Assembly: GCF_900107705.1 (NCBI RefSeq)
Contig: NZ_FNRE01000012.1
Span: 1-64,000, forward strand
DNA: 64,000 nucleotides
Reading direction: 5' to 3'
Source: Prevotella sp. tc2-28
Lineage (GTDB): Bacteria > Bacteroidota > Bacteroidia > Bacteroidales > Bacteroidaceae
Part shown: one piece after another, positions 1 to 54,882 of the stretch
How positions within the stretch are numbered: the first letter of the stretch is position 1
Layout: every line of letters starts with the position of its first letter
Notes under the pieces: generated by a model
Databases searched by the model: none
The model's input: only the letters and a program-made list of their open reading frames with translations
What the model was told of the DNA's origin: nothing
Made by a program: the position numbers and the translations under genes

Positions 1-45
1 CGGTGACGTCAAAGCCGAGCCTTACTAATTGCCCGAGAGCTTTTG
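1..45 (+). rRNA. 23S rRNA, 3' end (partial)
   Basis: The first bases match the terminal part of bacterial 23S rRNA: the stretch ending in TTACTAATTGCCCGAGAGC corresponds to the E. coli end that reads CGGTACTAATGAACCGTGAGG. Only the last few dozen bases are in the window; the gene starts upstream. The exact 3' end is approximate. It is followed by a spacer and 5S rRNA on the same strand, the usual end of an rRNA operon. Confidence 0.85.
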
Positions 46-142
46 CCGCAGTCATCTTTTCAGGTGTTGGTAACGAATCGACATCTCTGGCTTGCTTGTG
101 AAGATTGTCACCTATACGGTTAGGAGGACATGTGATGGGATT

Positions 143-184
143 GGGTAATCATAATTACTCATTACTAATTACTAATTCCTAATT
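143..184 (+). repeat. Solitary right arm of the TAATTATGATT heptamer element in the 23S-5S spacer
   Basis: This stretch reads GGGTAATCATAATTA followed by CTCATTA / CTAATTA heptamers. It is the same as the right arms at about 26867-26914, 30383-30426 and 31664-31706. About 20 bases before it (the ACATGTGATG region) also resemble the inner flank of the 31.6 kb copy, so homology extends beyond the simple repeat. No matching left arm is visible between the 23S end and this arm. Confidence 0.75.
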
Positions 185-194
185 CGAAGATTTA

Positions 195-307
<113 letters not shown>

Positions 308-26778: not shown

Positions 26779-26914
26779 CTAATGAGTAATGAGTAATTAG
26801 TAATTATGATTACCTTTGTGGCGGAATATGCGCATCTTTAACTGTATGTGTTCTGTGCTTAAACATATCATAATTACTCATTACTCATTACTCATTACTA
26901 ATTACTAATTAATT
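26779..26914. repeat. Inverted heptamer-array pair with a 54-base core, between convergent genes
   Basis: The left arm (26779-26812) consists of TAATGAG, TAATGAG, TAATTAG and the inner core TAATTATGATT. The right arm (26867-26914) consists of the inverse core followed by CTCATTA and CTAATTA units. The 54 bases between show no gene. The pair could form a long hairpin and sits exactly between the EnvC-like gene and argE. The last four codons and the TAG stop of argE are made of repeat sequence. Confidence 0.8.
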
Positions 26915-27982: not shown

Positions 27983-28034
27983 CATTTTTCATTTTTCATT
28001 TAAATTTCTCACTTCTCATTTCTCATTTCTCATT
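27983..28034. repeat. CATTTTT and TCTCATT heptamer arrays upstream of argE and fadD
   Basis: Two adjoining heptamer arrays: CATTTTT units at 27983-28001 and four TCTCATT/TCTCACT units at 28007-28034. They occupy the space between the divergent argE and acyl-CoA synthetase genes. No protein or RNA gene is recognisable in this gap. Confidence 0.7.
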
Positions 28035-28082
28035 TATTATTATTACCTTTGACTCCGTCTTCGGTACTCACGTTCGGAAAAT

Positions 28083-29967: not shown

Positions 29968-30426
29968 TAATGAGTAATTAGTAATGAGTAATTAGTAATT
30001 ATGATTTGTTTACTATGCAGGAAAGGCGTGAGAATGTTATCGTCAAGAAATCTGAAAAGTTCGCTGATAGAATAATCAAAATGTGTAAATACTTATCTAA
30101 AAAAAAGACAGGCGATAAGGATATGATCAATCAAATATATCGTAGCGGGACAAGTGTGGGTGCTAATGTCGCAGAGAGTCAATATGCCCAAAGTCGAGCT
30201 GACTTTTTGACAAAGATGACTATTGCTCTCAAGGAGGCAAATGAAACTCATTATTGGCTTGGACGTCTTAATTCGTGCGGTATTTTGACAGAGAAAGAAT
30301 ATGAATCTATTAATATAGATAGTGAAGAGATAATTAAATTATTAACGAGTATAACAGGAACGGTAAAAAATGGGTGAGCAAGAGTAATCATAATTACTCA
30401 TTACTCATTACTAATTACTCATTAAA
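29968..30426 (+). mobile_element. Candidate element: S23 gene inside inverted heptamer arrays
   Basis: The left arm (29968-30007) has TAATGAG/TAATTAG units and the core TAATTATGATT. The right arm (30383-30426) is its inverse. Between them lies only a four-helix-bundle gene. The left inner flank (GATTTGTTT) and right inner flank (GGTGAGCAAGAGTAATC) recur around the short copy at 31.5-31.7 kb. That is the pattern of a small element with an internally deleted relative. No transposase, target-site duplication or insertion boundary can be shown from this window. Confidence 0.5.
30015..30377 (+). CDS. Four-helix-bundle protein (23S rRNA intervening-sequence / S23 family)
   Basis: The 120-residue product is almost entirely helical, with the family features: KKSEKFADRIIKMCKYL in helix 1, IYRSGTSVGANVAESQ at the helix 1-2 turn, SRADFLTKMTIALKEANETHYWL in helix 2-3, and LNSCGILTEKEY before helix 4. 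Members are encoded in intervening sequences of 23S rRNA genes and as free-standing genes in Bacteroidetes; the Avd protein of diversity-generating retroelements has the same fold. No molecular function is established. A TTG nine bases upstream is also in frame, but ATG at 30015 is preferred. Inverted heptamer arrays enclose the gene, and its stop lies a few bases before the right arm. Confidence 0.85.
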   Translation: MQERRENVIVKKSEKFADRIIKMCKYLSKKKTGDKDMINQIYRSGTSVGANVAESQYAQSRADFLTKMTIALKEANETHYWLGRLNSCGILTEKEYESINIDSEEIIKLLTSITGTVKNG

Positions 30427-30427
30427 T

Positions 30428-31549
30428 ATGATAACATCCGACCAGTTAAAAGACGTCCTTGACCGTGCTGATGCGCTGTACAAGTATCTGAAGATAGACG
30501 AAAAGAAGATTGAATTCGAGGAGGAGGACCTTCGCACACAGGCTCCCGACTTCTGGGAAGACCAGAAGCGTGCCGAGGAGCAGATGAAGAAGGTGAAGGC
30601 CATCAAGAAATGGATTGATGGCTATCAGGCCGTACGTACTGCTGCCGATGAGCTTCAGCTGGCTTTCGACTTCTATAAGGAGGAGATGGTTACCGAGCAA
30701 GAGGTGGACCACAACTATGCCATGGCGATAGAGGCCATCGAGGCCTTGGAACTCAAGAACATGCTTCGCCAGAAGGAAGATCCCATGGATGCCGTGCTGA
30801 AGATTAATTCCGGTGCAGGTGGTACTGAGGCTCAAGACTGGGCACAGATGCTTATGCGTATGTATCAGCGTTGGGCAGAGGCGCATGGCTATAAGGTGAG
30901 CATTGCCAACTTACAGGATGGTGACGAGGCAGGCATCAAGAGTGTCACCATGCAGATAGAGGGTGGTGAGTTCGCCTATGGTTATCTGAAGTCAGAGAAT
31001 GGCGTCCATCGTCTGGTACGTGTGTCGCCTTATAACGCGCAGGGTAAGCGCATGACGTCATTCGCTTCTGTCTTCGTGTCTCCCTTGGTCGACGATACCA
31101 TTGAAGTGTATGTCGACCCAGCCAAACTCTCCTGGGACACCTTCCGCAGCTCCGGTGCGGGTGGTCAGAACGTCAACAAGGTGGAATCAGGTGTTCGCTT
31201 GCGCTATTGGTATACCGATCCTGATACCGGTGAGGAGGAAGAAATCCTGATTGAGAATACGGAGACGCGTGACCAGCCTAAGAACAAGGAGCGCGCAATG
31301 GCTTTGCTCCGCTCACAGCTCTACGATCGTGCCATGCAGAAGCGCCTGGAGGCACAGGCTAAGATTGAGGCTGGCAAGAAGAAGATAGAGTGGGGCAGCC
31401 AGATTCGAAGCTATGTCTTCGATGACCGTCGTGTCAAGGACCACCGTACGAATTATCAGACTTCTGATGTTGATGGTGTGATGGACGGTAAAATCGACGA
31501 TTTCATCAAGGCATACCTCATGGAATTTCCTTCAGTTGATAATGAGTAA
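30428..31549 (+). CDS. prfB: Peptide chain release factor 2
   Basis: Recognises UGA and UAA stop codons and triggers peptide release on the ribosome. The 373-residue product has the peptidyl-transferase motif GGQ at 245-247 (SGAGGQNVNKVESGVR), the stop-recognition region VRVSPYNAQGKR (SPY where E. coli has SPF) and an RF2-type N-terminal helical domain. The reading frame is continuous: at the position of the usual programmed +1 frameshift the codons read TAT CTG AAG, with no TGA and no upstream AGGGGG. A GTG further upstream is in frame but would translate the repeat arm. The last codons and TAA stop lie in the left arm of the next repeat pair. Confidence 0.95.
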   Translation: MITSDQLKDVLDRADALYKYLKIDEKKIEFEEEDLRTQAPDFWEDQKRAEEQMKKVKAIKKWIDGYQAVRTAADELQLAFDFYKEEMVTEQEVDHNYAMAIEAIEALELKNMLRQKEDPMDAVLKINSGAGGTEAQDWAQMLMRMYQRWAEAHGYKVSIANLQDGDEAGIKSVTMQIEGGEFAYGYLKSENGVHRLVRVSPYNAQGKRMTSFASVFVSPLVDDTIEVYVDPAKLSWDTFRSSGAGGQNVNKVESGVRLRYWYTDPDTGEEEEILIENTETRDQPKNKERAMALLRSQLYDRAMQKRLEAQAKIEAGKKKIEWGSQIRSYVFDDRRVKDHRTNYQTSDVDGVMDGKIDDFIKAYLMEFPSVDNE

Positions 31550-31706
31550 TTAGCAATGAGTAATTAGTAATTATGATTTGTTTGGAGGTTGAAAATAAGG
31601 ACGAATATATAGAGTTAAATAACTAAATAGTAAAACATGTAATGTGGTTGTTGGTGATAGCAGGGTAATCATAATTACTCATTACTAATTACTCATTACT
31701 AATTTT
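31539..31706. mobile_element. Short inverted-arm element, probable deletion relative of the S23 element
   Basis: Left arm 31539-31579 and right arm 31664-31706 with the same 11-bp inner cores as the S23-carrying copy. The core is only 84 bases. Its left end repeats GATTTGTTT, and its right end (GGTGATAGCAGGGTAATC) matches the right inner flank of the S23 copy (GGTGAGCAAGAGTAATC), including the position of the S23 stop codon. After the left flank, ATG ATT TGT TTG GAG GTT GAA AAT reads MICLEVEN, which recalls the start of S23 proteins, before a stop. This fits an element that lost the middle of its gene. Confidence 0.5.
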
Positions 31707-43260: not shown

Positions 43261-46200
43261 ATGCGAAAGATAACGACCATCCTATTACTTTGTTTGTCTG
43301 CAACACTGATGCAGGCACAGATTACTATTGGTGGTAGCATCTATGGCGGCGGTAATGCTGGAGACACAGGTGGAAGTTCCAAGGTTACGGTGCATGCAGG
43401 CAATCTGCATGCTGTATTTGCCGGAGCCCGAATGGCTAACATTGGCGGTTCTTCTTTCGTGCACCTCGATGGTGAACATGCCTCTGACTATATCCTTGCC
43501 GACTATGTCTATGGCGGTAACGATATAGCAGGAACCATCGGTAGTTCACAAGATCTTCCAACAGAACTGTCGGAAGTAGGCACAGGGGAAGGCAAGAACG
43601 ATATTGACAACACCTGGAATGCCTTTGTGCGCATATCTACTAAGATGAATGGTGATGCCGAGGCCGCTGATGCCCAGAAGATATATGTCGGTCAGTTGTT
43701 TGGTGGCGGTAATGGCTACTATGACTATGAAGCAAAAACCTCTGGCACTGGCACAATCGTCAAGGATAAAGTCACACATGCAGAGGTGGCTTCCAGTGAT
43801 AACGAGCTGTCGTCACCGGAACTCGGTAAAGCCTATCTGGAGCTCCTTGGCGGCTCTGTCGTCTATGCCTATGGTGGCGGTAACAATGCCACCATCACTG
43901 AAAACACGGTCATCTGCGTCGATAACCCCAGCAAGGTGGTCAACAGCATCAAAGATACTCGATTGACGTCAGAGAATGAGGGCGAACTGCTGACTACAGA
44001 GCGCTTCAAACTCATGAGAATCAACACCGGTTTGTCCTATCCCAGCAGTGATGCCTTCCAGATTGGCCGATTCTTTGGTGGTAACAACATGGCAGATATG
44101 GCCATTCGTCCAGTATGGAACCTGAAAAACGGAAAGATCAGAAACCTCTATAGCGGTGGTAATCAGGGTAGAATGACGAACCCGGAGGGATTGCTGCTGG
44201 AAATCATGGCTAACAGCACCATCAAGGTGGACAATGTCTATGGCGGATGTCGTATGGCAGATGTTCGTCCAATGAGAAACGGCCTTGATGTCCTGTCTTC
44301 TGACATTCAGCTGCATGATGAAGACGGTAATCAGATTTACAAATTCCCTGCAGGCCTGTCTGCCCGTGTGCTGGTTCGTGGTGGTGACATCAACAATGTC
44401 TATGGTGGTAACGATATCACAGGTCGTGTGTATGGCGGTAATGCCGTAGGTATATATACCAGTGTTCGAGGTGATGTCTATGGTGGAGGTAACGGCTCCT
44501 ATCCTTATACCGACAATGCCAAGCTGATAGGTCACGACATCTATGGCGACCTCTACTATAATCCTGGCAGCAACTCTGCGGAAGCCCTCAATGCCTTCCG
44601 TCCTAATGCAGAGCAGGTGTCTATCCGTGTGACGGGTACGGATGCGGATCATCCTACCGTCATAGGTGGCTCTGTCTATTGTGGCGGTAACAGTGCTACA
44701 CTGGCGACTGTCAAGCCGAAACCGTTGGTGGAATTGAAGATTGGCTCCTACGTGATAGCTGACAATGTGTTTCTGGGTAACAATGGTGCCAACATGATCA
44801 AGTATGATGTAGGCGAGGGACTTCATGAAGGTGTGTTGCGCACCATGAAGAGAACGGACATTGCGGACGATCATTCTGTTTACAATACTATGGACCTCAC
44901 CGATGTAGGAACCTTTGCCACCTATATGAACGGTGTGGCTATGGGATTGATGCCCAGCGTCACATTCGATGCCATCGCTAAAGGCGACCCTGCCGACTAC
45001 GAAGACTATACTACCATGTTCGGTTCCATCTACTGCGGTGGTAATGTGGGTAGTATGACGAGCAACGGCAAGACAGCCATCGACTTCACCCAGAAGGTGA
45101 TAGTCTATGACAAGGTGGTGGGTGGTTGTAACAATGCTTTCGTGACTCCTGTCACGGGCTTTAATGCCATCTATGAGGGTGGTCTGACAGGCAATCCTGA
45201 TGCCAACGGCGACAAGTTGCAGCTGAACTTTGCTGGATTGAAGATACAGCCCAAGCGCTGGAATAATGATCATACGGAACTGATATGGAACACCGTCGAC
45301 GCGTCAGGTACCCCCGTTGACCCCGTAACGTCAGGTGCCTCTCCTGAGAGCCCTGTTACCAGTAGTGATGCAGACTTGGACCGTCGTTTCACAGGTGGTA
45401 ACATCTATGGAGGTTGCTACAACAGCGGTTTCGTCAATGGTAATGTCGTCATCAATATCAACAGCTCTATCGTTGACCGTGACAGGCTCTTTGACACGGT
45501 GGAAGAGGACGAGAGTGGTGAAGACAAACTCTACGGCAACGACCAATATCGCATCACCAAGCGCAACAGTGGTGTCATCCTTTCCGAGCAAGGCATGGAT
45601 GTGCTGGGTAAGGCCCTCAACGTGTTTGGTGGCGGTAAGGGTGTGAATACTGAGATATGGGGCTCAACTACCATCAACCTCAACCGTGGCTACATGTTCC
45701 AGATATTCGGTGGCAGTGAGGAAGGCGGTATCGGTAAGGGAAACTATAATGAGTCGACAGGAAAAATAGAGTACACCTACGACGAGAAATACAGCACCTA
45801 TATCAATCTGAATGGTCCTGTTCCTGGTGTATCCAAAAAGGAAAGTATGAGTGAGGATATCGCCGAGTGTGAGTTTATGTATGGTGGCGGTTTCTTAGGT
45901 GTTACAGCAGGTAACTGTATCATCAACTTAAATAACGGTCGTATCTTCGACTCTTTCGCAGGAGCTTGTAATGCCAATGTCCTCGGACATACAGAGACTT
46001 ATATCGGCGTCAACGGCTTCCCATACGTTCGTGACTTCGTATATGGCGGTAACGACCTGGGAGGACAAATTCTTGGAACTGCCAATTTCGACAGCCGTCT
46101 GCGCAACGAGACCGTTCGCGGCAAGGTATATAATAACGATATGCTCAATGCTTCTGCATATATAGAATATGTACAGGGGCGCGTGGAGAAGATATTCGGT

Positions 46201-49200
46201 GGCGCATATGGTGTGTATGACTACAAGGACGAGCACTTCCGTGCATACTTCGATGCCGACGGTCACGCATTGACAGGCTACCACAAGCCTTTCTTGGACA
46301 ATGCTTTCATCAACTTCCGTCCTAACGACACTAACAACCCGCTGAATACCGTAAAGCAGATATACGGAGCAGGACAGGGTTACCTCGGTGAAGAAGAGGA
46401 GGACTTGATGCAGAACCGCAGTTATATCTTGATTGATGTTCCACAGACCATGCAGACCTATCAGGATACCGAGATATTCGGTGCCGGAGAGAGTGGCGGT
46501 GTAGGTATGGGTGTAGCAAAAGCCACAGCAGACGCCACTGCCACAGCACACAAGGCATCTGCCATCATCGACCTGCTGAGTGGTCATTTCAAGGCTGTCT
46601 ATGGTGGTAGTTATCAGGAGGGCGTGACACGACGCACTGTGGTCAACGTACCTACTGGTTCTACCTTCCGTGCGGAAGCCATCTTTGGTGGTGCCTACGG
46701 CTTGTATCAGTGGTATCCTTGCGACGTCTATGAGGCGAATGTCAACTGGAACAGTAGCGATGCCCTCGTAGGTGGCTATCGTACGGGTATCTACGGTGGT
46801 AACAATAACTGCCGCCGCACCTTCTACAGTCACGTCAACATCAATGCACCTGTCTATTTTGACAAGGCCAACGAGTACTTTGCTACTGTCTATGGTGCTG
46901 GTTACGGTAAGGACACCTGGTCACAATATACCGAGGTCAACCTGAACAACACAGCTCGCGTCTATGAGGTATATGGCGGTGGTCAGTTGGGGCGCGTGAT
47001 GAACAAGAAAACGGTTGATGCATGGGCACCCGGAGCTTATACAGAAGCTCACGCAGCATGGGATGCCTTGCTTGATGATGAGAAGGCTAATACTCCGGAA
47101 CCTCAGACAATTGACATCTCTATCGGAACGGGCTATACCGACACTGGACTGGACAATGACCTTGCATTAGCCAGAAACGGTAGGAAATACAATACCAACG
47201 TCATCATCAAACAAGGTGCTGATGTCTGTGGCTATATGTACAACGGTAGTCTCAGCGGTGCATACGCATATGGTGGCGGTCTGGGTGATGCCAATGTTCC
47301 CAATACCGGCGACGTTCACGGAACTACCTACATCGCCTTGCTGGGTGGTAAGGTAACAAAGGACCTCTATGCCGCAGGAACAGTAGGTTCGGTAAACAAC
47401 AAATACAACATCGCAACTGACGACTTCGACGAGTCATTCATTGCTTCAACCAATGCCTATATCGAGGGTGGTACGGCACGTAACGTCTATGGCGGCGGTT
47501 GGAGAGGTAGTGTAGGCTACCACGCTGGCGCTATCAGCGCCACCCCAGCAGATGATATCCTCGGTGTGGCTAACGTCATCATCGGTAAGAAAGACGGTAC
47601 CAGCTTCATCGACGGTATCCCAGCCATCGAGCGTAATGCATACGGTGGTGGTGAGGGTGGTCCTGTATTCGGAACAGCCAACATCACCCTGAACAAGGGC
47701 TTTATCGGTTATCGTCACTTCAACTCTGTACCGACAACAGAAACCGACCTCGACTATGTACAGGTAGGCTCTGACTACTATCAGGAGAAGCTGAACGACG
47801 AGACTTGGTCGGGCGACGGTACCAACCGACTCTATGACAGTGGATGCATCTTCGGTGGTGGTTATATCGACAACAGTAGTGTGGATATCACCAATGTCAA
47901 GATGTATGGTGGTGTAGTACGTAACGCCCTCTTCGGAGGCGGTGAGATTGCCGCCATCGGACGTGGTGTCATCCAGGCTACCGGACAGGACAACAGTGTC
48001 CGTACCCTGCAGGGTATCTACAAGGCTGGTAGGACAAGCGTTGATATGTTCGACGGCCAGGTACACCGCAATGTCTTTGGTGGTGGTCGAGGCTACAACA
48101 ACCTGGGTGACGGTGGTACGCTCTATTCCGACGGTTACGTCTTCGGACAGACAGAGGTGCATGTACACGGAGGTATAATAGGTACAGCGAAGGAACTGGC
48201 GCGTGAGAATGGTAACGTCTTCGGTGGTGGTGATATCGGTTATGTATATAGTGCCTACGAAGACAATGAAGGCAATCTCTATGTCGGCATCAAGGATGGT
48301 GAGCGCTATAAAACTCAATGGGAGGGCTACTATTATGCTTATAAGAAAGGACATGATGCATACATCCCTGGTCCGAAGCCTGATGATGACGATTCTGGCT
48401 GGGTGAAGGATGCAGGCGAGTATGTGCTTACCGAGGACTGCAAGGTGCTGATTGAGCCTCACTGTAGGGCAAAGTCTGCTGTTTCCATCAATAATCACAA
48501 CTATGCCGAAGGTGACTTTGTAACCACAGAAGACCTCCACCATCTGGGCAATAAGAGCAGCGACTCTCGCTGGAGCAGCTTGGATGATACGGGTATCACC
48601 ATCTTCAACGCTGTGTTTGCTGGTGGTAACACCTCATCAGGTTCTTCTACCGTGTATGCTAACACGACCACAGTATTCGGTAATGCTACAGCATCTATCC
48701 ACGACGTCTATCACCGCGACCTGATTACCTTAGGTACAGGACGTACTGGTGGTCTGTACGGTGATGGTAACCTGACCTTCGTCGACGGCTATCGCGGACT
48801 GAACATCACCAACTATGGCACAGACTACTATAACATCGCTAAAGAGATTACGTATGACGCATATAAGGACCTTCCTGCCCGTGAGCAAGATTACTATCAG
48901 CTGAAGTATAAGTGTATCAAAGCATGTACAGATAAGGATGGAACGGCCTACCATATAGCAAGCAGCGAAAGCAGCAAGGCTTCTACGCTGACCATCGACG
49001 ACCTGCTGACGCTGTTTGAAGGTATTAAGGATGGTGATGTAGATATTCTTCTAACTGATCCAGAAACGGGTGAGCAATATCCGAATCCTGCTTACTGGGA
49101 GCAAAGTGGTGTCGTTCCTGTCTATGCCGGTCGTCTGATGAATACCATTCAGCGTGCAGACTTCTGCGGTGTGTTCGGTAGCCGTATGGTGATGCAGGGA

Positions 49201-52200
49201 GCACAGGACCGTGTGCCTGAGATTGTAGACCATACCAACTACACCATTAACCGTGTGCGTGAGGTGTCACTCAACCATAAGACATCCGTTATCGAGGACG
49301 ACAAGGCTCTGAAGTCTGGCAAAACGCCAAAGGCTGACATCATGGATCAGAATCCGGATGATTTCGTAAATAAGGACAAGGCTATTCACGGCAACTACTT
49401 CGGTATCTACAGCATCGTGAACTACTTAGGTGCCCTGACCAGTGACGCATTCTTCCTGCCAGGAAAGAATATACGCTATACAGAGAATACCTCTAATCAT
49501 GACTACAAGACCGCCTCAGGGGCATACAGTGGCGGCACTTCCAAACCTTATGGTGAGGCCACCTTCTACGACTGGAAGGCAGGATACGTCAATAACCGCA
49601 AGCGCAACAACGGTACCAGTCATAACAAGGTGGCACTGGCATCAGGTGTCTATCTGGAGCTGACCACAGAGCAGAGTACAGGCAACGACCTGTATGAGAA
49701 GGACTGGGGCTACATCACGGGTGTGGTAGAGCTCGATCTCATCAACGTGCAGCCAGGTATGGGTGGTGGCTTCGTCTATGCCAAGAACGTACATAAGATA
49801 GGCGAATATAGACCGAGTAAGCATGTTACTTTGACGGCTTTGAACACTGGTGCTGTCACCCGACGCGACTTCACGTTTGATGGTGCCGACGTGGAATGGG
49901 AGACGTCAGGAAACTTTATCCACAGTACGCAGACGATTATCGATGACTGTTACAACGTCAGCGGTAAATATAAAGGTAGCGATGCCGTTCCTGCACACTA
50001 CTGGTTCATCAAGGGTTCGGTATATGTCTATGACCAGTATATCTCTGCTTACACCGGCGCGCCTAATGCATACAGCGAGACGGTGGACATTCCGCTGACC
50101 ATCACTGCTGCTTCGCATGGTACGATGAAGCTGCTCAACGTGATGCCTAACAAGTATGCTTACTACTCTGCTCCTGGTGTGAAACTGGAGGGTGACAAGA
50201 AGATGGTCATCAACGATGTGGAGTATCATCTGAACGATCCTATCAACTACTGGGATTGGTACTTGCTGACTCCAGCTGAGAAGAATCTGTTTGTCGATGA
50301 AACCTATGTCACCATTGCAGACTGCAAGTATAGCAGCAGTGACGCAAATGTCATTCCTGCAGGTACGGTGATGCTGCCTGATGAGTACAATACATTGAAG
50401 GCTGCTCACACAGAAGTTTACCATGTTGAAAAACAGGAGAATGTTCCTTTCGACTTCGTATATCGCTCAACCAACAACATGAGCCACGATACGGGCTATA
50501 TGCTGACCTACAGGGTGAATAACCCGACAGACTGGAACACTTGGTACACCAAGTTTGAGAGCGCTAATCCTATTGGAGATAAGAAACAGACAGACGATAC
50601 GGGCTATGAGGATGGTCCTACCTATCGTTTCACCGGTGGTTCAGCCGGTATCCTCGGACAACGTGAGTATAAGGTAAGCAACCTTATCGCTAAAGATATT
50701 TACGATACTTACCAGACGATGGTAACGGATCATCCTGATGCTATCCCAGAAGGACAGGCAACCTTCAAACCAGCTTATATCGTAACTCAAGAATATGCAA
50801 GTGGTGACGAACACCTGCATGTTGGCACCACTGTTTCTGCTACAAAGGCAGCTACGATGACTGATGAATATGTGAAGCCCGCCTTCATCTGTACGAGCAC
50901 CATCCAGCTCAGCAAGACAGAGTTCATCTATGTAGGCAACCGCATGACGGAGGCAGAGAAGGAAGCATACAAAACTGCTAATCCTTCGTTGGCTGCTGTA
51001 ATCGAGGCAGATGTTGTACCTGCCTACTACTGTACCGCTGATGGCCTCTACGGGGGTAATTACTATGAGGCTGGCAAGAACTATCGTGGACTGGAAGTAT
51101 GGAGCTCTATGTCGAAGGCAGACCGCGAGAAGTTTGAATTCAACTATGATGCCTTCGATGTGCTCATCGATTCTCGCTATAGTAAGAATGCTGAAGGTAC
51201 CAGCATCATACATCCTGAGGGACAGAAGTATCAGTACGACTCTGCAGCAGGTACTAAGGAGGCAGCAATAGCCAATAAGGCGGGCTACTCTCTGGAACGG
51301 CCTGTTAACTACACCGCAACCTATAACGGCACAAGCACTCTCGACTATGGAAGTGGTACCGTAGCCCCAGGAGCGGAAATTTCTCGAGTAGAGTTCGAGA
51401 ACATTCCTAATGAGAAACGCCACTATGTTTCTATCGACGTGAAGGAGGCAGGCAACATCTATGTTGTTAAAAACTCATTCCAGGTAGGCAACACGCCATA
51501 CGCTGTGGGCTCTACCATCTCGGCAAGTACATATAACAGTTTGAGCGGCTCAGAACAGGGGAATATCACTACGCTGACATTCACCGAGGAGCAGAAGGAC
51601 AAGACATTCTACTACTGCCGCGAGGAGTATGAGGTCGGTGAGCATGGTCAAGGTGAAACCGTAACAGGTATCTCCGGCATCGGTGGCGTAACTGGAACCT
51701 ATAACAACGGACATACTGTTCCTGTGGGAGTCTTAATCAATGAGAGCAACTACACAAGTTTGAAGAACTACCAGACAGACTTCACCATCCACGGTATTGC
51801 TCCTACGGAGACCAGCACGCTGTATGTAAGCCGCTTCTCTGACATCTTCGACCTCTCGAAGGAGAAGATTATCACCGTCATTTACGAGTACAACTACGAG
51901 GAGAGCGATGCCTCTGGCACACATGTCACTCCTGTCAGCGAGCGCCATGTGGTGAATATCCATGTGCTGTTCAAGAGCGGTATTCCTACCGTCGAGGACA
52001 TCAAGGCGCCGCAGATTGTGCTGCCAGGTACTTTCGTTGGTGTGCGTGAGCCACATGTGACACCAGGTGCCTACGAGGTAACGGGCGGTGGATGGAAGCT
52101 CTTTGAGAAAAAGGCAGAAGCAGAAAACCACACCAATGGTATCGAATATACTCCTACCGCTGACCCGCTCTACTGGTATCAGGATGGCTACTATCTGGCT

Positions 52201-54882
52201 TACTATGCGAAGACCTATCTCGGTGAGACATACTCTAATACTGTCCAGGTAAGTGTAGCCAACTATCATGACTTGACGAAGGTGATGGCTGATACTGAGC
52301 ACCACTACTATGTAGACAACAAGAACGTAAAGCGCGACTCAAAGATATACATCACTGATGCAACCAACGGTGCTACTCAGCTCAAGCAGTTCTACGACCT
52401 CAGTAAGAGCGCGCTCGATGCACACGTCCAAGACTGCCAGAACCTTGAGTTCTTCCTGCACACCAACGTTAATCATGAAGGCGGTTGGACGCCAATCGGT
52501 GACGAAGGTCACTGCTTCGCAGGTAACTTCCACGGTGACGGTTACCACATCGACGGACTCGACCACTCACTGTTCGGTCAACTCTGTGGTAACGTATATA
52601 ACCTCGGTGTGACAGGTTCATTCACCTCTGCTGGTGTTGCTGACACTGGTGGCGGCTATGTAGAGAACTGCTGGATCAACACCACAGGTACGCCTGATGG
52701 TAGCGTCAAGGCTGTCTTTGGCAACCCAACAGCAGAAGGCAAGAAGATAGTCAACTGCTACTATCCAGAGGGACTGAACTACAGTACATCGAACGACAGT
52801 CACGGCTTAGCTCGTCCTATGCCTGCCGCTGCCTTCTACAACGGTACTGTAGCTTACGACCTGAACGGCTTCTACCTATATAAGAGATATAATAACACGA
52901 AGACCGGTGCTGGTCTGCCTCATACATTCTACACTATCAATACCGACGGTACATTGTCTGATCCAACGACGAAGAACTATGTAGAGAATAACGCTACTTA
53001 TTGTTCGTCGGGTATCGCAAACATATATGTTACCGACGAAGTTGACTATGGTGGTTATGTTGAGCAGCGCTATGCTGACGGTGACTTCCGCTATGCTGAC
53101 GGTGTGATACCTGAGAGCGAAGACGAGCGTACATTGGTCGATGCTGATGGCAATAGTCACTTCTATCCCATCTGGCCTGACGACTACTTCTACTTCGGAC
53201 AGATGCTGACCTATAACTGGAACAACCAGCGTCCACACGAGGATGTTCCTTCACACATCGTGAAGAACAGCGGTCGTCTGTCAAATACTGATGAGAGCAA
53301 CCGTGTATATCGTGCCCCTGCTTACTATCAGTCAAAGGTGATGGATGTGGCTCACTTCAACCCGGCTGTGAACCTCGTAGCCTACTCGAAGCCGCAATCG
53401 TCGAACGATATAAACCTGCATCCGGCTTACCCGGATATGACGGCTATCGACTTTGCTGGTCATAACGATACCGATTGGACTATTGGTCGTGCAGGCGGTG
53501 CTCCCGCTGGAGTAGACTTGTTCTACCGTCCACTGCTCGACGAGAATGGATTGCAGAGCATCATCAACCGCGATGAGACAGACAACATGTTGGTATATGC
53601 TCCTGCAGCAGAAGGCAATGCACAGACATATGGTGTGCTGACAACCTACTTCACCGAACCATCATATAGTGACTACTACAACAACAGCGATACATATCGC
53701 CGCGTTAGTGCAGCACCCTACTGGACGGTATTCGGTCACCTGGTACAGAACGACCTCACTGCTACCAGCGACCAACTGCTGGTGGATAAGCAGGACTTCA
53801 ACTGTCCTCTCAGCTACACCTTTGCTGAGGGTAAGCGTATGTGGTACCAGCGTATGCCTGATCTCTACGTGAGCCTTAACAAGGGATGGGAAGGCATCAG
53901 CCTGCCGTTCATAGCTGAACTGGTTTCTACTCAGGACAAGGGTGAAATCACCCACTTCTACAGCGGTAGCCGCACCATCGAAGGCAGCGATGCCAAGATT
54001 GGTCACGAGTACTGGCTGCGTGAATATAAAGGTGGTGCTGTGGATCCTGATGATGATAAGATTTTCAAGTCAACCTTCAACTATCCTGATGCCGCAGGCG
54101 ACACCAAGATCGTTGGCAACACCTTCCTTTGGGATTATTACTATAATCTGAATGGTCGACTGGATGCCAACACGGATTCCTACCAGACTTATTATCAGAC
54201 TGGTCGTAACCTTGCCAGCTATCCGTTGCTGGCAACTGCTAAACCGTATATCATCGGCTTCCCAGGCAAGACCTACTATGAGTTCGACCTCAGTGGCGAG
54301 TGGACGGCTAAGAATACTGCGGCCACCGCTCCTGCACAGCTCGCCAAGCAGGCTATCAGCTTCGTATCTAATCCGGGCATCAGGATTGACGTCAGCAATG
54401 ATGAACTGAATGCTGTCACTGCAGAAACCAACTACAGCTTCATGCCTAACTATATGAGCAAGAAGGTATCTAACGCCTTCCTGATGAATGGCGAGGGCAG
54501 CAGCTTCGACAAGGTCGCAACAGGTACAACTGTACCATTCCGTCCGTACTTCGTGACAGTAGCTTCGCCATCACCTGCCCCACGTCGCGCTGCGGCAGAG
54601 ACTATCGTCTTCGACCGAACCGACTCTTCATTCGCCATTGGTGACGACCCATCCGATGAGTTGGCTGGCGAGCTGACCTTCTCAACGAAGCCTCGCAAGC
54701 TGATTACGACTTCGTCGTTGCGTCAGCCTGCCGATGTCCGTATTTATAATGTTAGCGGCGTCGCCATCAGCACGTTCACCATCCAACCCGGTGAGACTAT
54801 CGAGACCGACATTGCTGTCTCAGGTGTTTACATCATCCGTGCTGCCAATGGTCGCTATACGAAGAAACTGACACTGAAGTAA
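43261..54882 (+). CDS. Giant exported glycine-motif beta-solenoid protein with T9SS sorting domain
   Basis: The 3,873-residue product begins with a signal peptide (about 1-19, ending LMQAQ). Residues about 20-1790 contain some 35 copies of a loose unit ending in [VIF][YF]GGG, for example SIYGGGNAGDTGG, DVYGGGNGSYPY, NVFGGGKGVNTE and NVYGGGWRGSVG, usually after a strand like TNVIING; this suggests a long beta-solenoid. Residues about 1790-3060 carry tyrosine-rich modules (YYCTADGLYGGNYYEAG, then YNSLSGSEQG-like turns). A GLUG-like region lies near 3086-3160 (FGQLCGNVYNLGVTGSF). The end, from about 3825 (VRIYNVSGVAISTFTI to RYTKKLTLK), is a type A T9SS sorting domain, so the protein should be exported by the type IX system and attached to the surface. 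Function is probably adhesion; no enzyme domain is seen. Confidence 0.85.
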   Translation: MRKITTILLLCLSATLMQAQITIGGSIYGGGNAGDTGGSSKVTVHAGNLHAVFAGARMANIGGSSFVHLDGEHASDYILADYVYGGNDIAGTIGSSQDLPTELSEVGTGEGKNDIDNTWNAFVRISTKMNGDAEAADAQKIYVGQLFGGGNGYYDYEAKTSGTGTIVKDKVTHAEVASSDNELSSPELGKAYLELLGGSVVYAYGGGNNATITENTVICVDNPSKVVNSIKDTRLTSENEGELLTTERFKLMRINTGLSYPSSDAFQIGRFFGGNNMADMAIRPVWNLKNGKIRNLYSGGNQGRMTNPEGLLLEIMANSTIKVDNVYGGCRMADVRPMRNGLDVLSSDIQLHDEDGNQIYKFPAGLSARVLVRGGDINNVYGGNDITGRVYGGNAVGIYTSVRGDVYGGGNGSYPYTDNAKLIGHDIYGDLYYNPGSNSAEALNAFRPNAEQVSIRVTGTDADHPTVIGGSVYCGGNSATLATVKPKPLVELKIGSYVIADNVFLGNNGANMIKYDVGEGLHEGVLRTMKRTDIADDHSVYNTMDLTDVGTFATYMNGVAMGLMPSVTFDAIAKGDPADYEDYTTMFGSIYCGGNVGSMTSNGKTAIDFTQKVIVYDKVVGGCNNAFVTPVTGFNAIYEGGLTGNPDANGDKLQLNFAGLKIQPKRWNNDHTELIWNTVDASGTPVDPVTSGASPESPVTSSDADLDRRFTGGNIYGGCYNSGFVNGNVVININSSIVDRDRLFDTVEEDESGEDKLYGNDQYRITKRNSGVILSEQGMDVLGKALNVFGGGKGVNTEIWGSTTINLNRGYMFQIFGGSEEGGIGKGNYNESTGKIEYTYDEKYSTYINLNGPVPGVSKKESMSEDIAECEFMYGGGFLGVTAGNCIINLNNGRIFDSFAGACNANVLGHTETYIGVNGFPYVRDFVYGGNDLGGQILGTANFDSRLRNETVRGKVYNNDMLNASAYIEYVQGRVEKIFGGAYGVYDYKDEHFRAYFDADGHALTGYHKPFLDNAFINFRPNDTNNPLNTVKQIYGAGQGYLGEEEEDLMQNRSYILIDVPQTMQTYQDTEIFGAGESGGVGMGVAKATADATATAHKASAIIDLLSGHFKAVYGGSYQEGVTRRTVVNVPTGSTFRAEAIFGGAYGLYQWYPCDVYEANVNWNSSDALVGGYRTGIYGGNNNCRRTFYSHVNINAPVYFDKANEYFATVYGAGYGKDTWSQYTEVNLNNTARVYEVYGGGQLGRVMNKKTVDAWAPGAYTEAHAAWDALLDDEKANTPEPQTIDISIGTGYTDTGLDNDLALARNGRKYNTNVIIKQGADVCGYMYNGSLSGAYAYGGGLGDANVPNTGDVHGTTYIALLGGKVTKDLYAAGTVGSVNNKYNIATDDFDESFIASTNAYIEGGTARNVYGGGWRGSVGYHAGAISATPADDILGVANVIIGKKDGTSFIDGIPAIERNAYGGGEGGPVFGTANITLNKGFIGYRHFNSVPTTETDLDYVQVGSDYYQEKLNDETWSGDGTNRLYDSGCIFGGGYIDNSSVDITNVKMYGGVVRNALFGGGEIAAIGRGVIQATGQDNSVRTLQGIYKAGRTSVDMFDGQVHRNVFGGGRGYNNLGDGGTLYSDGYVFGQTEVHVHGGIIGTAKELARENGNVFGGGDIGYVYSAYEDNEGNLYVGIKDGERYKTQWEGYYYAYKKGHDAYIPGPKPDDDDSGWVKDAGEYVLTEDCKVLIEPHCRAKSAVSINNHNYAEGDFVTTEDLHHLGNKSSDSRWSSLDDTGITIFNAVFAGGNTSSGSSTVYANTTTVFGNATASIHDVYHRDLITLGTGRTGGLYGDGNLTFVDGYRGLNITNYGTDYYNIAKEITYDAYKDLPAREQDYYQLKYKCIKACTDKDGTAYHIASSESSKASTLTIDDLLTLFEGIKDGDVDILLTDPETGEQYPNPAYWEQSGVVPVYAGRLMNTIQRADFCGVFGSRMVMQGAQDRVPEIVDHTNYTINRVREVSLNHKTSVIEDDKALKSGKTPKADIMDQNPDDFVNKDKAIHGNYFGIYSIVNYLGALTSDAFFLPGKNIRYTENTSNHDYKTASGAYSGGTSKPYGEATFYDWKAGYVNNRKRNNGTSHNKVALASGVYLELTTEQSTGNDLYEKDWGYITGVVELDLINVQPGMGGGFVYAKNVHKIGEYRPSKHVTLTALNTGAVTRRDFTFDGADVEWETSGNFIHSTQTIIDDCYNVSGKYKGSDAVPAHYWFIKGSVYVYDQYISAYTGAPNAYSETVDIPLTITAASHGTMKLLNVMPNKYAYYSAPGVKLEGDKKMVINDVEYHLNDPINYWDWYLLTPAEKNLFVDETYVTIADCKYSSSDANVIPAGTVMLPDEYNTLKAAHTEVYHVEKQENVPFDFVYRSTNNMSHDTGYMLTYRVNNPTDWNTWYTKFESANPIGDKKQTDDTGYEDGPTYRFTGGSAGILGQREYKVSNLIAKDIYDTYQTMVTDHPDAIPEGQATFKPAYIVTQEYASGDEHLHVGTTVSATKAATMTDEYVKPAFICTSTIQLSKTEFIYVGNRMTEAEKEAYKTANPSLAAVIEADVVPAYYCTADGLYGGNYYEAGKNYRGLEVWSSMSKADREKFEFNYDAFDVLIDSRYSKNAEGTSIIHPEGQKYQYDSAAGTKEAAIANKAGYSLERPVNYTATYNGTSTLDYGSGTVAPGAEISRVEFENIPNEKRHYVSIDVKEAGNIYVVKNSFQVGNTPYAVGSTISASTYNSLSGSEQGNITTLTFTEEQKDKTFYYCREEYEVGEHGQGETVTGISGIGGVTGTYNNGHTVPVGVLINESNYTSLKNYQTDFTIHGIAPTETSTLYVSRFSDIFDLSKEKIITVIYEYNYEESDASGTHVTPVSERHVVNIHVLFKSGIPTVEDIKAPQIVLPGTFVGVREPHVTPGAYEVTGGGWKLFEKKAEAENHTNGIEYTPTADPLYWYQDGYYLAYYAKTYLGETYSNTVQVSVANYHDLTKVMADTEHHYYVDNKNVKRDSKIYITDATNGATQLKQFYDLSKSALDAHVQDCQNLEFFLHTNVNHEGGWTPIGDEGHCFAGNFHGDGYHIDGLDHSLFGQLCGNVYNLGVTGSFTSAGVADTGGGYVENCWINTTGTPDGSVKAVFGNPTAEGKKIVNCYYPEGLNYSTSNDSHGLARPMPAAAFYNGTVAYDLNGFYLYKRYNNTKTGAGLPHTFYTINTDGTLSDPTTKNYVENNATYCSSGIANIYVTDEVDYGGYVEQRYADGDFRYADGVIPESEDERTLVDADGNSHFYPIWPDDYFYFGQMLTYNWNNQRPHEDVPSHIVKNSGRLSNTDESNRVYRAPAYYQSKVMDVAHFNPAVNLVAYSKPQSSNDINLHPAYPDMTAIDFAGHNDTDWTIGRAGGAPAGVDLFYRPLLDENGLQSIINRDETDNMLVYAPAAEGNAQTYGVLTTYFTEPSYSDYYNNSDTYRRVSAAPYWTVFGHLVQNDLTATSDQLLVDKQDFNCPLSYTFAEGKRMWYQRMPDLYVSLNKGWEGISLPFIAELVSTQDKGEITHFYSGSRTIEGSDAKIGHEYWLREYKGGAVDPDDDKIFKSTFNYPDAAGDTKIVGNTFLWDYYYNLNGRLDANTDSYQTYYQTGRNLASYPLLATAKPYIIGFPGKTYYEFDLSGEWTAKNTAATAPAQLAKQAISFVSNPGIRIDVSNDELNAVTAETNYSFMPNYMSKKVSNAFLMNGEGSSFDKVATGTTVPFRPYFVTVASPSPAPRRAAAETIVFDRTDSSFAIGDDPSDELAGELTFSTKPRKLITTSSLRQPADVRIYNVSGVAISTFTIQPGETIETDIAVSGVYIIRAANGRYTKKLTLK

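Follow-up and report, generated by a model that had tools for sequence, protein, structure and literature searches.

Inverted heptamer arrays around an S23 four-helix-bundle gene of Prevotella sp. tc2-28: a likely REPtron-like minimal mobile element

Open reading frames of the S23 family are found in intervening sequences (IVSs) of rRNA genes in Coxiella, Leptospira and other bacteria (PMC4990558). The Coxiella IVS, 428 nt long, combines an S23 ORF with terminal inverted repeats forming a 28-bp stem, and directly before the ORF it carries tandem GACAGAT heptamers whose number varies among strains. This IVS is excised by RNase III, and the authors infer that no S23 protein is produced from it in vivo, its ORF being in decay. 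The protein Xcc0516 is a toroidal homopentamer (PMC4990558). Moreover, the profile PF05635 resembles Avd (PMC10053308), which acts in diversity-generating retroelements (DGRs).

RAYT (TnpA-REP) is a single gene with its own intergenic repeats, the REPs/REPINs, which are also scattered as inverted pairs and singlets without the gene, and co-evolution of gene and repeat has been proposed (PMC3116915). DDE insertion sequences and MITEs are characterised by a transposase, fixed terminal repeats and a target duplication of constant length. Heptamer repeats of unknown role include TAACTGA in Beggiatoaceae, cyanobacteria and Bacteroidetes (PMC4679880), as well as GGGAATC in Xanthomonas and GGGGA(C/T)T in Nostoc (PMC4679880; PMC4692102). 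Cyanobacterial STRRs are likewise heptamer repeats of unknown role. Xanthomonas campestris contains 70 inverted heptamer pairs, with four units preferred (PMC4679880; PMC4692102), and few such pairs have been reported from Nostoc PCC7120 (PMC4692102). For start-codon-proximal TAACTGA heptamers, a post-transcriptional regulator was proposed (PMC4679880). Neither 'S23' nor 'four helix' occurs in the main texts of PMC4679880 and PMC4692102, and PMC5524665 records, by annotation only, a four helix bundle gene flanked by guanylate kinase and adenylyltransferase genes. In the literature examined, heptamer arrays, S23 structures without function and S23-bearing rRNA IVSs have so far been described separately, their role and spread unexplained. 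A search of open-access full text found no paper linking S23 to heptamer arrays generally; subscription papers and preprints lay outside this search, and priority is therefore uncertain.

The window considered here is the whole stretch of DNA analysed, 64,000 nt of a Prevotella sp. tc2-28 contig. A preliminary description, made from the sequence alone, had claimed that an S23 gene is enclosed by inverted arms of TAATGAG/TAATTAG heptamers ending inward in an 11-bp core, that the same arm structure occurs at three other places, and that arms plus gene form a spreading unit with no transposase of its own. The features concerned are as follows.

29968..30006, + strand: left arm, four heptamers TAATGAG/TAATTAG, then TAATTATGATT
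30015..30377, + strand: S23 / 23S_rRNA_IVP four-helix-bundle gene, 120 aa (PF05635 6.2e-25; TIGR02436; PDB 2rld 2.9e-30)
30386..30424, − strand: right arm, reverse complement of the left arm, 97%
26780..26911, no strand: S23-less paired element A, inverted heptamer arms with a 76-nt interior
31540..31705, no strand: S23-less paired element C, directly after prfB
147..185, − strand: solo array (single arm) with inner core

The claim of enclosure held. The arms are 39 nt each and 97% complementary, with 379 nt between them, and the terminal inverted repeats form a stem around the ORF, the whole element folding as a long RNA stem (z −5.0). The gene runs from an ATG at 30015 to a stop codon ending at 30377 (the mechanical ORF starts at a TTG at 30006), and its bordering genes are taken to be fadD and prfB, as named in the preliminary description. 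Its 11-bp core also held, in amended form: it comprises half of the last unit (TAAT) and an inner box, TATGATT(AC). This box stands beside other heptamers in related S23 elements (L336, L339, L342, L343, L345, L346, L348, L352) and was mostly unseen in the arms inspected from other S23 clades. With at most one mismatch, TAATTATGATT matches the window seven times against 1.2 expected, and none of 100 shuffles reaches seven. Across the 34 main window genes, the inverted-repeat score over the gene is 73 for S23 and 48 for prfB, which is flanked by two heptamer elements, with a median of 17. An array of another heptamer, AAATGAG, was observed at 28015-28035, upstream of the gene named fadD.

The three other places were confirmed as the pairs A and C and the single arm at about 147-185, all with the unit of the window S23 arms. 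Element A including its arms folds as one long RNA stem (z −10.3), and the interior of element C alone folds no better than shuffles. An element like C was missing after prfB in G189, G157, G204, G182 and G186; an interior resembling that of C lies near an S23 gene of G232 (L317), and the idea that element C is unique to the tc2-28 genome was rejected on account of this similar element. Alongside the window element, this genome carries pairs without S23 and solo arrays of the same unit, and these outnumber the one S23 copy of that unit. A reversed-pattern control for TAATKAG arrays matched too (7+6 vs 20+18 in G000; 34+16 vs 27+12 in G245), and it is uninformative because TAATGAG read backwards gives the same array in another phase. 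As a separate observation, window positions 1-300 and the start of contig C15 (L013, L267) are nearly the same in sequence, apparently that of a 5S rRNA region, and each adjoins a solo array; the two solo-array copies differ in their units.

Inverted arms are a frequent feature of S23 genes. In this genome there are six PF05635 hits, one weak and under the cut-off. Inverted arrays of other units surround the S23 genes at L001 and L005, direct arrays were found at L003, and L002 has an array on one side only. The exact GTAATTATGATT is absent beside all other S23 genes of the genome and the repeat differs between elements, so that these genes would have escaped a search restricted to the core; the idea that TAATTATGATT is a universal core was rejected. 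Around the S23 gene of L001, long and partly nested AGTTTAC arrays were observed at 1250-1480 and 1830-1930.

For a broader view, arms were scored by local alignment between the 300 nt upstream of S23 and the reverse-complemented 300 nt downstream of it. In a family scan, 78 of 151 genomes had an S23 match at E <= 0.001, giving 117 domains, of which 116 loci could be scored (the weak one included; one domain had no flanks). The median arm score was 46, and 101 of the 116 loci exceeded the 99% point of a null built from 248 windows of the same geometry elsewhere in the same loci (median 18, 99% point 29, maximum 43). The remaining 15 loci fell short of this threshold, and L003, L063 and L134 gave high scores for direct, not inverted, repeats. 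A second set of 86 loci (84 scorable) comprised six from cyanobacterial plasmids and 80 from a species-genome scan covering cyanobacteria, rhizobia and other phyla, with some Bacteroidota. Here, 65 of 84 exceeded the null 99% point of 25.7 and 58 exceeded 29 (131 null windows, maximum 31). The units differ again, for instance GGGAACA and GGGAATA in cyanobacteria and GGCAGTA and GGTGAAT in Mesorhizobium; other-unit arms were also exemplified in a Nitrospira, Acidobacteria, an Omnitrophota and candidate-phyla bacteria, and two other Nitrospira S23 loci scored at null level.

The S23 family was present in 157 of 198 genomes drawn from the phylum of the window, and a held-out phylum set of 50 loci (30 best hits and 20 further listed places) was picked before any flanks were seen. 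With the strict score, 24 of 50 exceeded 29, compared with 1 of 79 null windows. A softer score, picked only after this result, placed 37 of 50 above the null 95% point (null 16/341; Mann-Whitney p 4e-20) and only 2 of 50 above the null 99% point, which a few repeat-rich null windows appear to have inflated. Loci passing on any of three measures numbered 44 of 50 (null 40/341). The statistical tests are uncorrected for genome relatedness.

These comparisons bear on one objection, namely that the arms are a product of chance or composition in AT-rich intergenic DNA. The arms of the window element are indeed AT-rich, which is the point in favour of such an artefact. Against it stand the same-locus nulls, the shuffles and a reverse-complement control (see below), together with the GC-richer arms of rhizobia and cyanobacteria, and this explanation can be all but dismissed.

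The figures for anatomy, orientation, co-divergence and selection come solely from the 101 loci past the arm threshold. Their outer length has a median of 493 bp (5-95%: 430-614) and their arms a median of 38 bp, with a median of 16 nt from arm to start codon and 10 nt from stop codon to right arm. The heptamer period of the preliminary description proved to be the most common: the joint repeat period is 7 in 65 of 101 loci and 8 in 17, the remainder having 6 or 9 to 12. The arms contain a median of 4.5 units on the left (93 loci) and 4.6 on the right (95 loci); shuffled flanks matched the array score in 55 of 1010 trials. The element mostly lies in sense and occupies the short gap that separates one gene's stop codon from the gene that follows. 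When neighbouring genes are defined by a longest-frame rule, 83 of 101 loci have S23 co-directional with both of them and 4 have it opposite to both, and the stop codon of a co-directional upstream gene lies a median of 2 nt before the left arm. Furthermore, G exceeds C in the upstream arm of 89 of the 101 loci.

This build resembles the Coxiella IVS in its S23 ORF, its terminal inverted repeats and the tandem heptamers ahead of the ORF. However, the window element lies between protein-coding genes and not inside a 23S rRNA gene, and S23 elements have whole-array arms, many sites and repeat types, and S23-less derivatives. A search of 356 loci with two 23S motifs, a weak test, gave no S23 gene inside a 23S gene. 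The known heptamer repeats are similar in being intergenic arrays, many of them near start codons. DDE elements and MITEs are not matched, as no transposase was detected in the gene, the arms differ from element to element and a 5-bp duplication was seen in one of five site sets.

The protein was examined in its own right. The window S23 matches PF05635 with 87.9 bits (cut-off 33.8) and the TIGR02436 four helix bundle protein model with 95.2 bits (2.6e-27; cut-off 24); no other Pfam domain, and no transposase domain, was matched in the gene at E <= 0.001. Its AlphaFold2 model (pLDDT 94.6) has four helices and superposes on the solved S23 proteins 2rld (TM 0.91) and 2gsc (TM 0.78), 2rld having been deposited with five chains. 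In 51 of 53 S23 pairs with 70-97% protein identity dS is saturated, and dN is below about 0.3 in those shown; S23 is therefore maintained as a working protein by purifying selection, unlike the Coxiella ORF, which is described as decaying and probably unexpressed. Both S23 alignments show little or no variation at the polar residues Q40, R43, S47, N51, E54 and E77 (window numbering). No catalytic activity of S23 is known to us, and none is demonstrated by this sequence analysis.

The fold raises the possibility that movement occurs by reverse transcription, with a resident reverse transcriptase (RT) and S23 acting as Avd does in DGRs. In favour of this, the window S23 model has a fold similar to Avd (4dwl, TM 0.74, E 0.19), and the elements lie in sense between co-directional genes. 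The structural signal is weak: Avd 4dwl and the DGR RT complex 8ub7 score E about 0.2, ranked after some plant pectin methylesterase inhibitors. The window locus, in contrast to a DGR, shows no RT, template repeat or variable repeat; no RT is adjacent, the single PF00078 match of this genome being weak (8.6e-7) and on another contig (C24), and one DGR avd locus examined had no arms (IR 17). Moreover, PF00078 and S23 occur independently of each other across genomes (41/37/35/38, p=0.63), and three or more S23 matches without any PF00078 match at E <= 0.001 were counted in at least nine genomes that are 90% or more complete. A resident RT as the required motor was rejected on the strength of these S23-rich genomes, and the RT explanation as a whole is unlikely. 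The earlier claim that the unit has no transposase of its own is consistent with these observations, a resident RT not being required either.

Across different sites, repeat type and S23 protein diverge together. In 4822 locus pairs from different junctions, with unrelated translated flanks, arm similarity follows S23 similarity with a Spearman coefficient of 0.235 (1000 permutations: mean 0.002, sd 0.019, maximum 0.07). Mean 5-mer sharing between arms rises from 0.049 at S23 identity below 20% to 0.328 above 70%, and the reverse-complement control stays flat at 0.02-0.04 (first flank filter). Among S23 pairs above 65% identity, both flanks are unrelated in 96 of 132, as exemplified by three TTTAGTG-type elements at three sites (L091, L098, L139); similar elements thus occur at unrelated sites. 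In 100 genomes of the genus, TAATKAG arrays were present in all eight with an S23 at least 60% identical to that of the window and in 16 of the 92 others (p=4e-6, uncorrected for relatedness). Of these 16, 13 have only more distant S23 matches, and G245, G206 and G211 (65-86% complete) have the arrays and no S23 match.

The co-divergence speaks to a further alternative, in which the arrays are the mobile or expanding entity and S23 genes were merely captured between them. It is supported by the S23-less pairs and solo arrays of this genome, which outnumber its one S23 copy of the unit. It is contradicted by the linked divergence of array type and S23 protein, and by the enclosure of S23 in many groups, whereas other window genes are not enclosed, except prfB between two elements; capture is very improbable.

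Filled and empty sites provide the evidence for movement: some replicons carry a complete element that their close relatives lack. In the genus, prfB was found in 57 of 60 genomes, 30 loci were compared by S23 search, and the junction could be read in 19 of these (the motif was not found in 11). An S23 element lies at the fadD-prfB junction in 5 of the 30 loci, including this genome, and empty junctions were found in the close relatives L239, L240 and L241, whose prfB is 94-96% identical; L242, L244, L247 and L252 carry, by inspection, short solo arrays of other units there. The five S23 proteins are 60-85% identical and are accompanied by several array types, and therefore the element at this junction may be an old resident that was lost more than once, and not a new insertion. 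In L255, a TAATTAG element adjoins an AATGAGA-type array that has no right-hand partner, and it may have been inserted into this older array. The preliminary description would have been refuted by the lack of any empty site in relatives and by other S23 genes without arms, and neither half was borne out: empty sites exist, and inverted arrays are common across genomes, here at L001 and L005, the core not being shared.

Clearer cases come from cyanobacterial plasmids, in which seven loci (L151, L154, L155, L370-L373) were searched and five sets of filled and empty sites were obtained. In set 1, a 423-bp element is present in T. variabilis (L154) and Scytonema (L362) and missing from L359, L360 and L368, with flanks 96-99% identical. 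GTAAT stands on both sides of the element and once in the empty site, a 5-bp target duplication; the two filled copies differ in repeat number, and L361 has at this site only a left arm and the S23 start. Set 2 comprises L151 and L358 (filled) against L363 and L365 (empty), and at the same site L364 has an S23-less pair (about 730-990), its relatives having the S23 element or neither. Set 3 sets L155 and L357 against the empty L366, L367 and L369; in set 4, L373 is filled and L374, L375 and L379 are empty, the target having lost about 9 nt; set 5 sets L372 against L376-L378. Element ends are ambiguous in sets 2, 3 and 5, and a clean duplication was obtained in one of five sets only, so that a fixed target duplication, seen in set 1 alone, was rejected. 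L370 and L371 showed no plain empty site in the hit tables, hit sequences not having been compared. The L373 element is 83% identical to that of L154 over about 410 bp, and the surroundings of the two sites do not match.

The arms-plus-S23 unit is thus genuine and widespread and is either there or missing as a whole, and its mobility is well supported. The preferred reading, held with a probability of roughly 0.7, is a minimal mobile element resembling a REPtron, in which one S23 gene sits between inverted short-repeat arrays and S23 would recognise its own repeat; this recognition is the best inference. Similar builds around S23 in many bacteria, usually with another repeat, point to a minimal mobile element without a recognisable enzyme. 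The layout of a REPtron is met, with inverted repeats around S23 and scattered pairs and singlets of the same repeat, and by analogy the RAYT/REPIN system is the nearest working model. In contrast to RAYTs, S23 is a four-helix bundle, no Y1/HUH transposase was found, and the repeats are tandem heptamers instead of short palindromes. That S23 itself drives movement is an inference, association alone being no proof that it moves the array. Counting against this reading are the loci without inverted arms, the site sets that lack a clean duplication, the array-bearing genomes with only distant S23 matches or none, and the inferred decay of the Coxiella ORF. The claim of a spreading unit is in this sense supported, with a repeat sequence that differs between elements.

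The proposed mechanism is as follows. The S23 gene would be expressed through transcription of the host operon. A ring of five S23 subunits, matched by about 4.6 units per arm, may bind its own repeat, either in folded RNA or in single-stranded DNA. By this binding it would allow replication, repair or other enzymes of the host to copy the unit, or its S23-less copies, into new stop/start junctions. The arms may form a stem cleavable by RNase III, as in rRNA IVSs. Copies would later degenerate into solo arrays and pairs lacking S23, which would account for the intergenic heptamer repeats of these genomes.

The strongest rival holds that S23 is a resident RNA-binding regulator and the arrays its mRNA sites, with the 5' array serving autoregulation and solo arrays controlling other genes. 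TRAP is a comparable ring that wraps tandem mRNA units. This view is favoured by the strong purifying selection on S23, by about 4-5 units per arm against a five-subunit ring (2rld), by solo arrays directly before apparent start codons in L011, L012, L014 and L021 (by inspection), and by the proposal made for TAACTGA heptamers (PMC4679880). It leaves unexplained the presence or absence of whole units, the inverted downstream array, the S23-less pairs and the different repeats found at one junction in different genomes, and the balance tips modestly against it.

Within the mobile-element reading, the unit lacks a defining feature of every family of mobile elements considered (location in rRNA, a transposase or an RT) and would therefore form a category of its own. 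The S23-bearing rRNA IVS may be one special case of the arms-plus-S23 unit or, if that IVS is taken as the kind, the unit may be its variant. A bolder reading, which as a whole could go either way, regards S23 genes across bacteria as master copies of an unnamed class of mobile elements, whose ends are tandem heptamer arrays read by the S23 ring, one unit per subunit. Its products would include S23 rRNA IVSs, cyanobacterial heptamers, Xanthomonas GGGAATC and Bacteroidota arrays, and it would insert at stop/start junctions, duplicate the gene overlap and be able to supply a start codon. If one system links arrays, S23 and IVSs, the widespread S23 family gains a function that a binding assay can test, and the S23 element may explain several families of mysterious short repeats. 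If true, this would also open enzyme-free or host-powered DNA mobility to experiment, and many operons would have been re-spaced and some start codons replaced by S23 elements.

Arrays before a gene taken to be trpE (by inspection; L430 to L449, 20 printed loci of 28 fetched) concern such start codons. The upstream gene and trpE overlap by ATGGAAACTTTTAA in 5 of 20 loci (L431, L435, L436, L439, L443), and in about 9 of 20 an array stands between the genes at position about 1500, with a unit that varies between loci (L430, L432, L433, L434, L437, L438, L441, L444, L449; that of L438 is short). In L430, L433, L437, L438 and L444, both gene ends still resemble the overlap, and in L430 (this genome), L437 and L444 trpE starts with ATGATTAC, like the inner core, and not with ATGGAAAC. 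The pattern resembles a target duplication with delivery of a start codon, a possibility that rests on inspection only, with the ancestral state undetermined.

Two minor observations remain. Different S23 elements seemingly occupy one junction in different genomes (L043, L045, L054, L071, L073, L107, L109), taken by inspection to be sdhA-sdhB. The longest frame in the ORF list of the window is 3873 aa, at 43261-54882.
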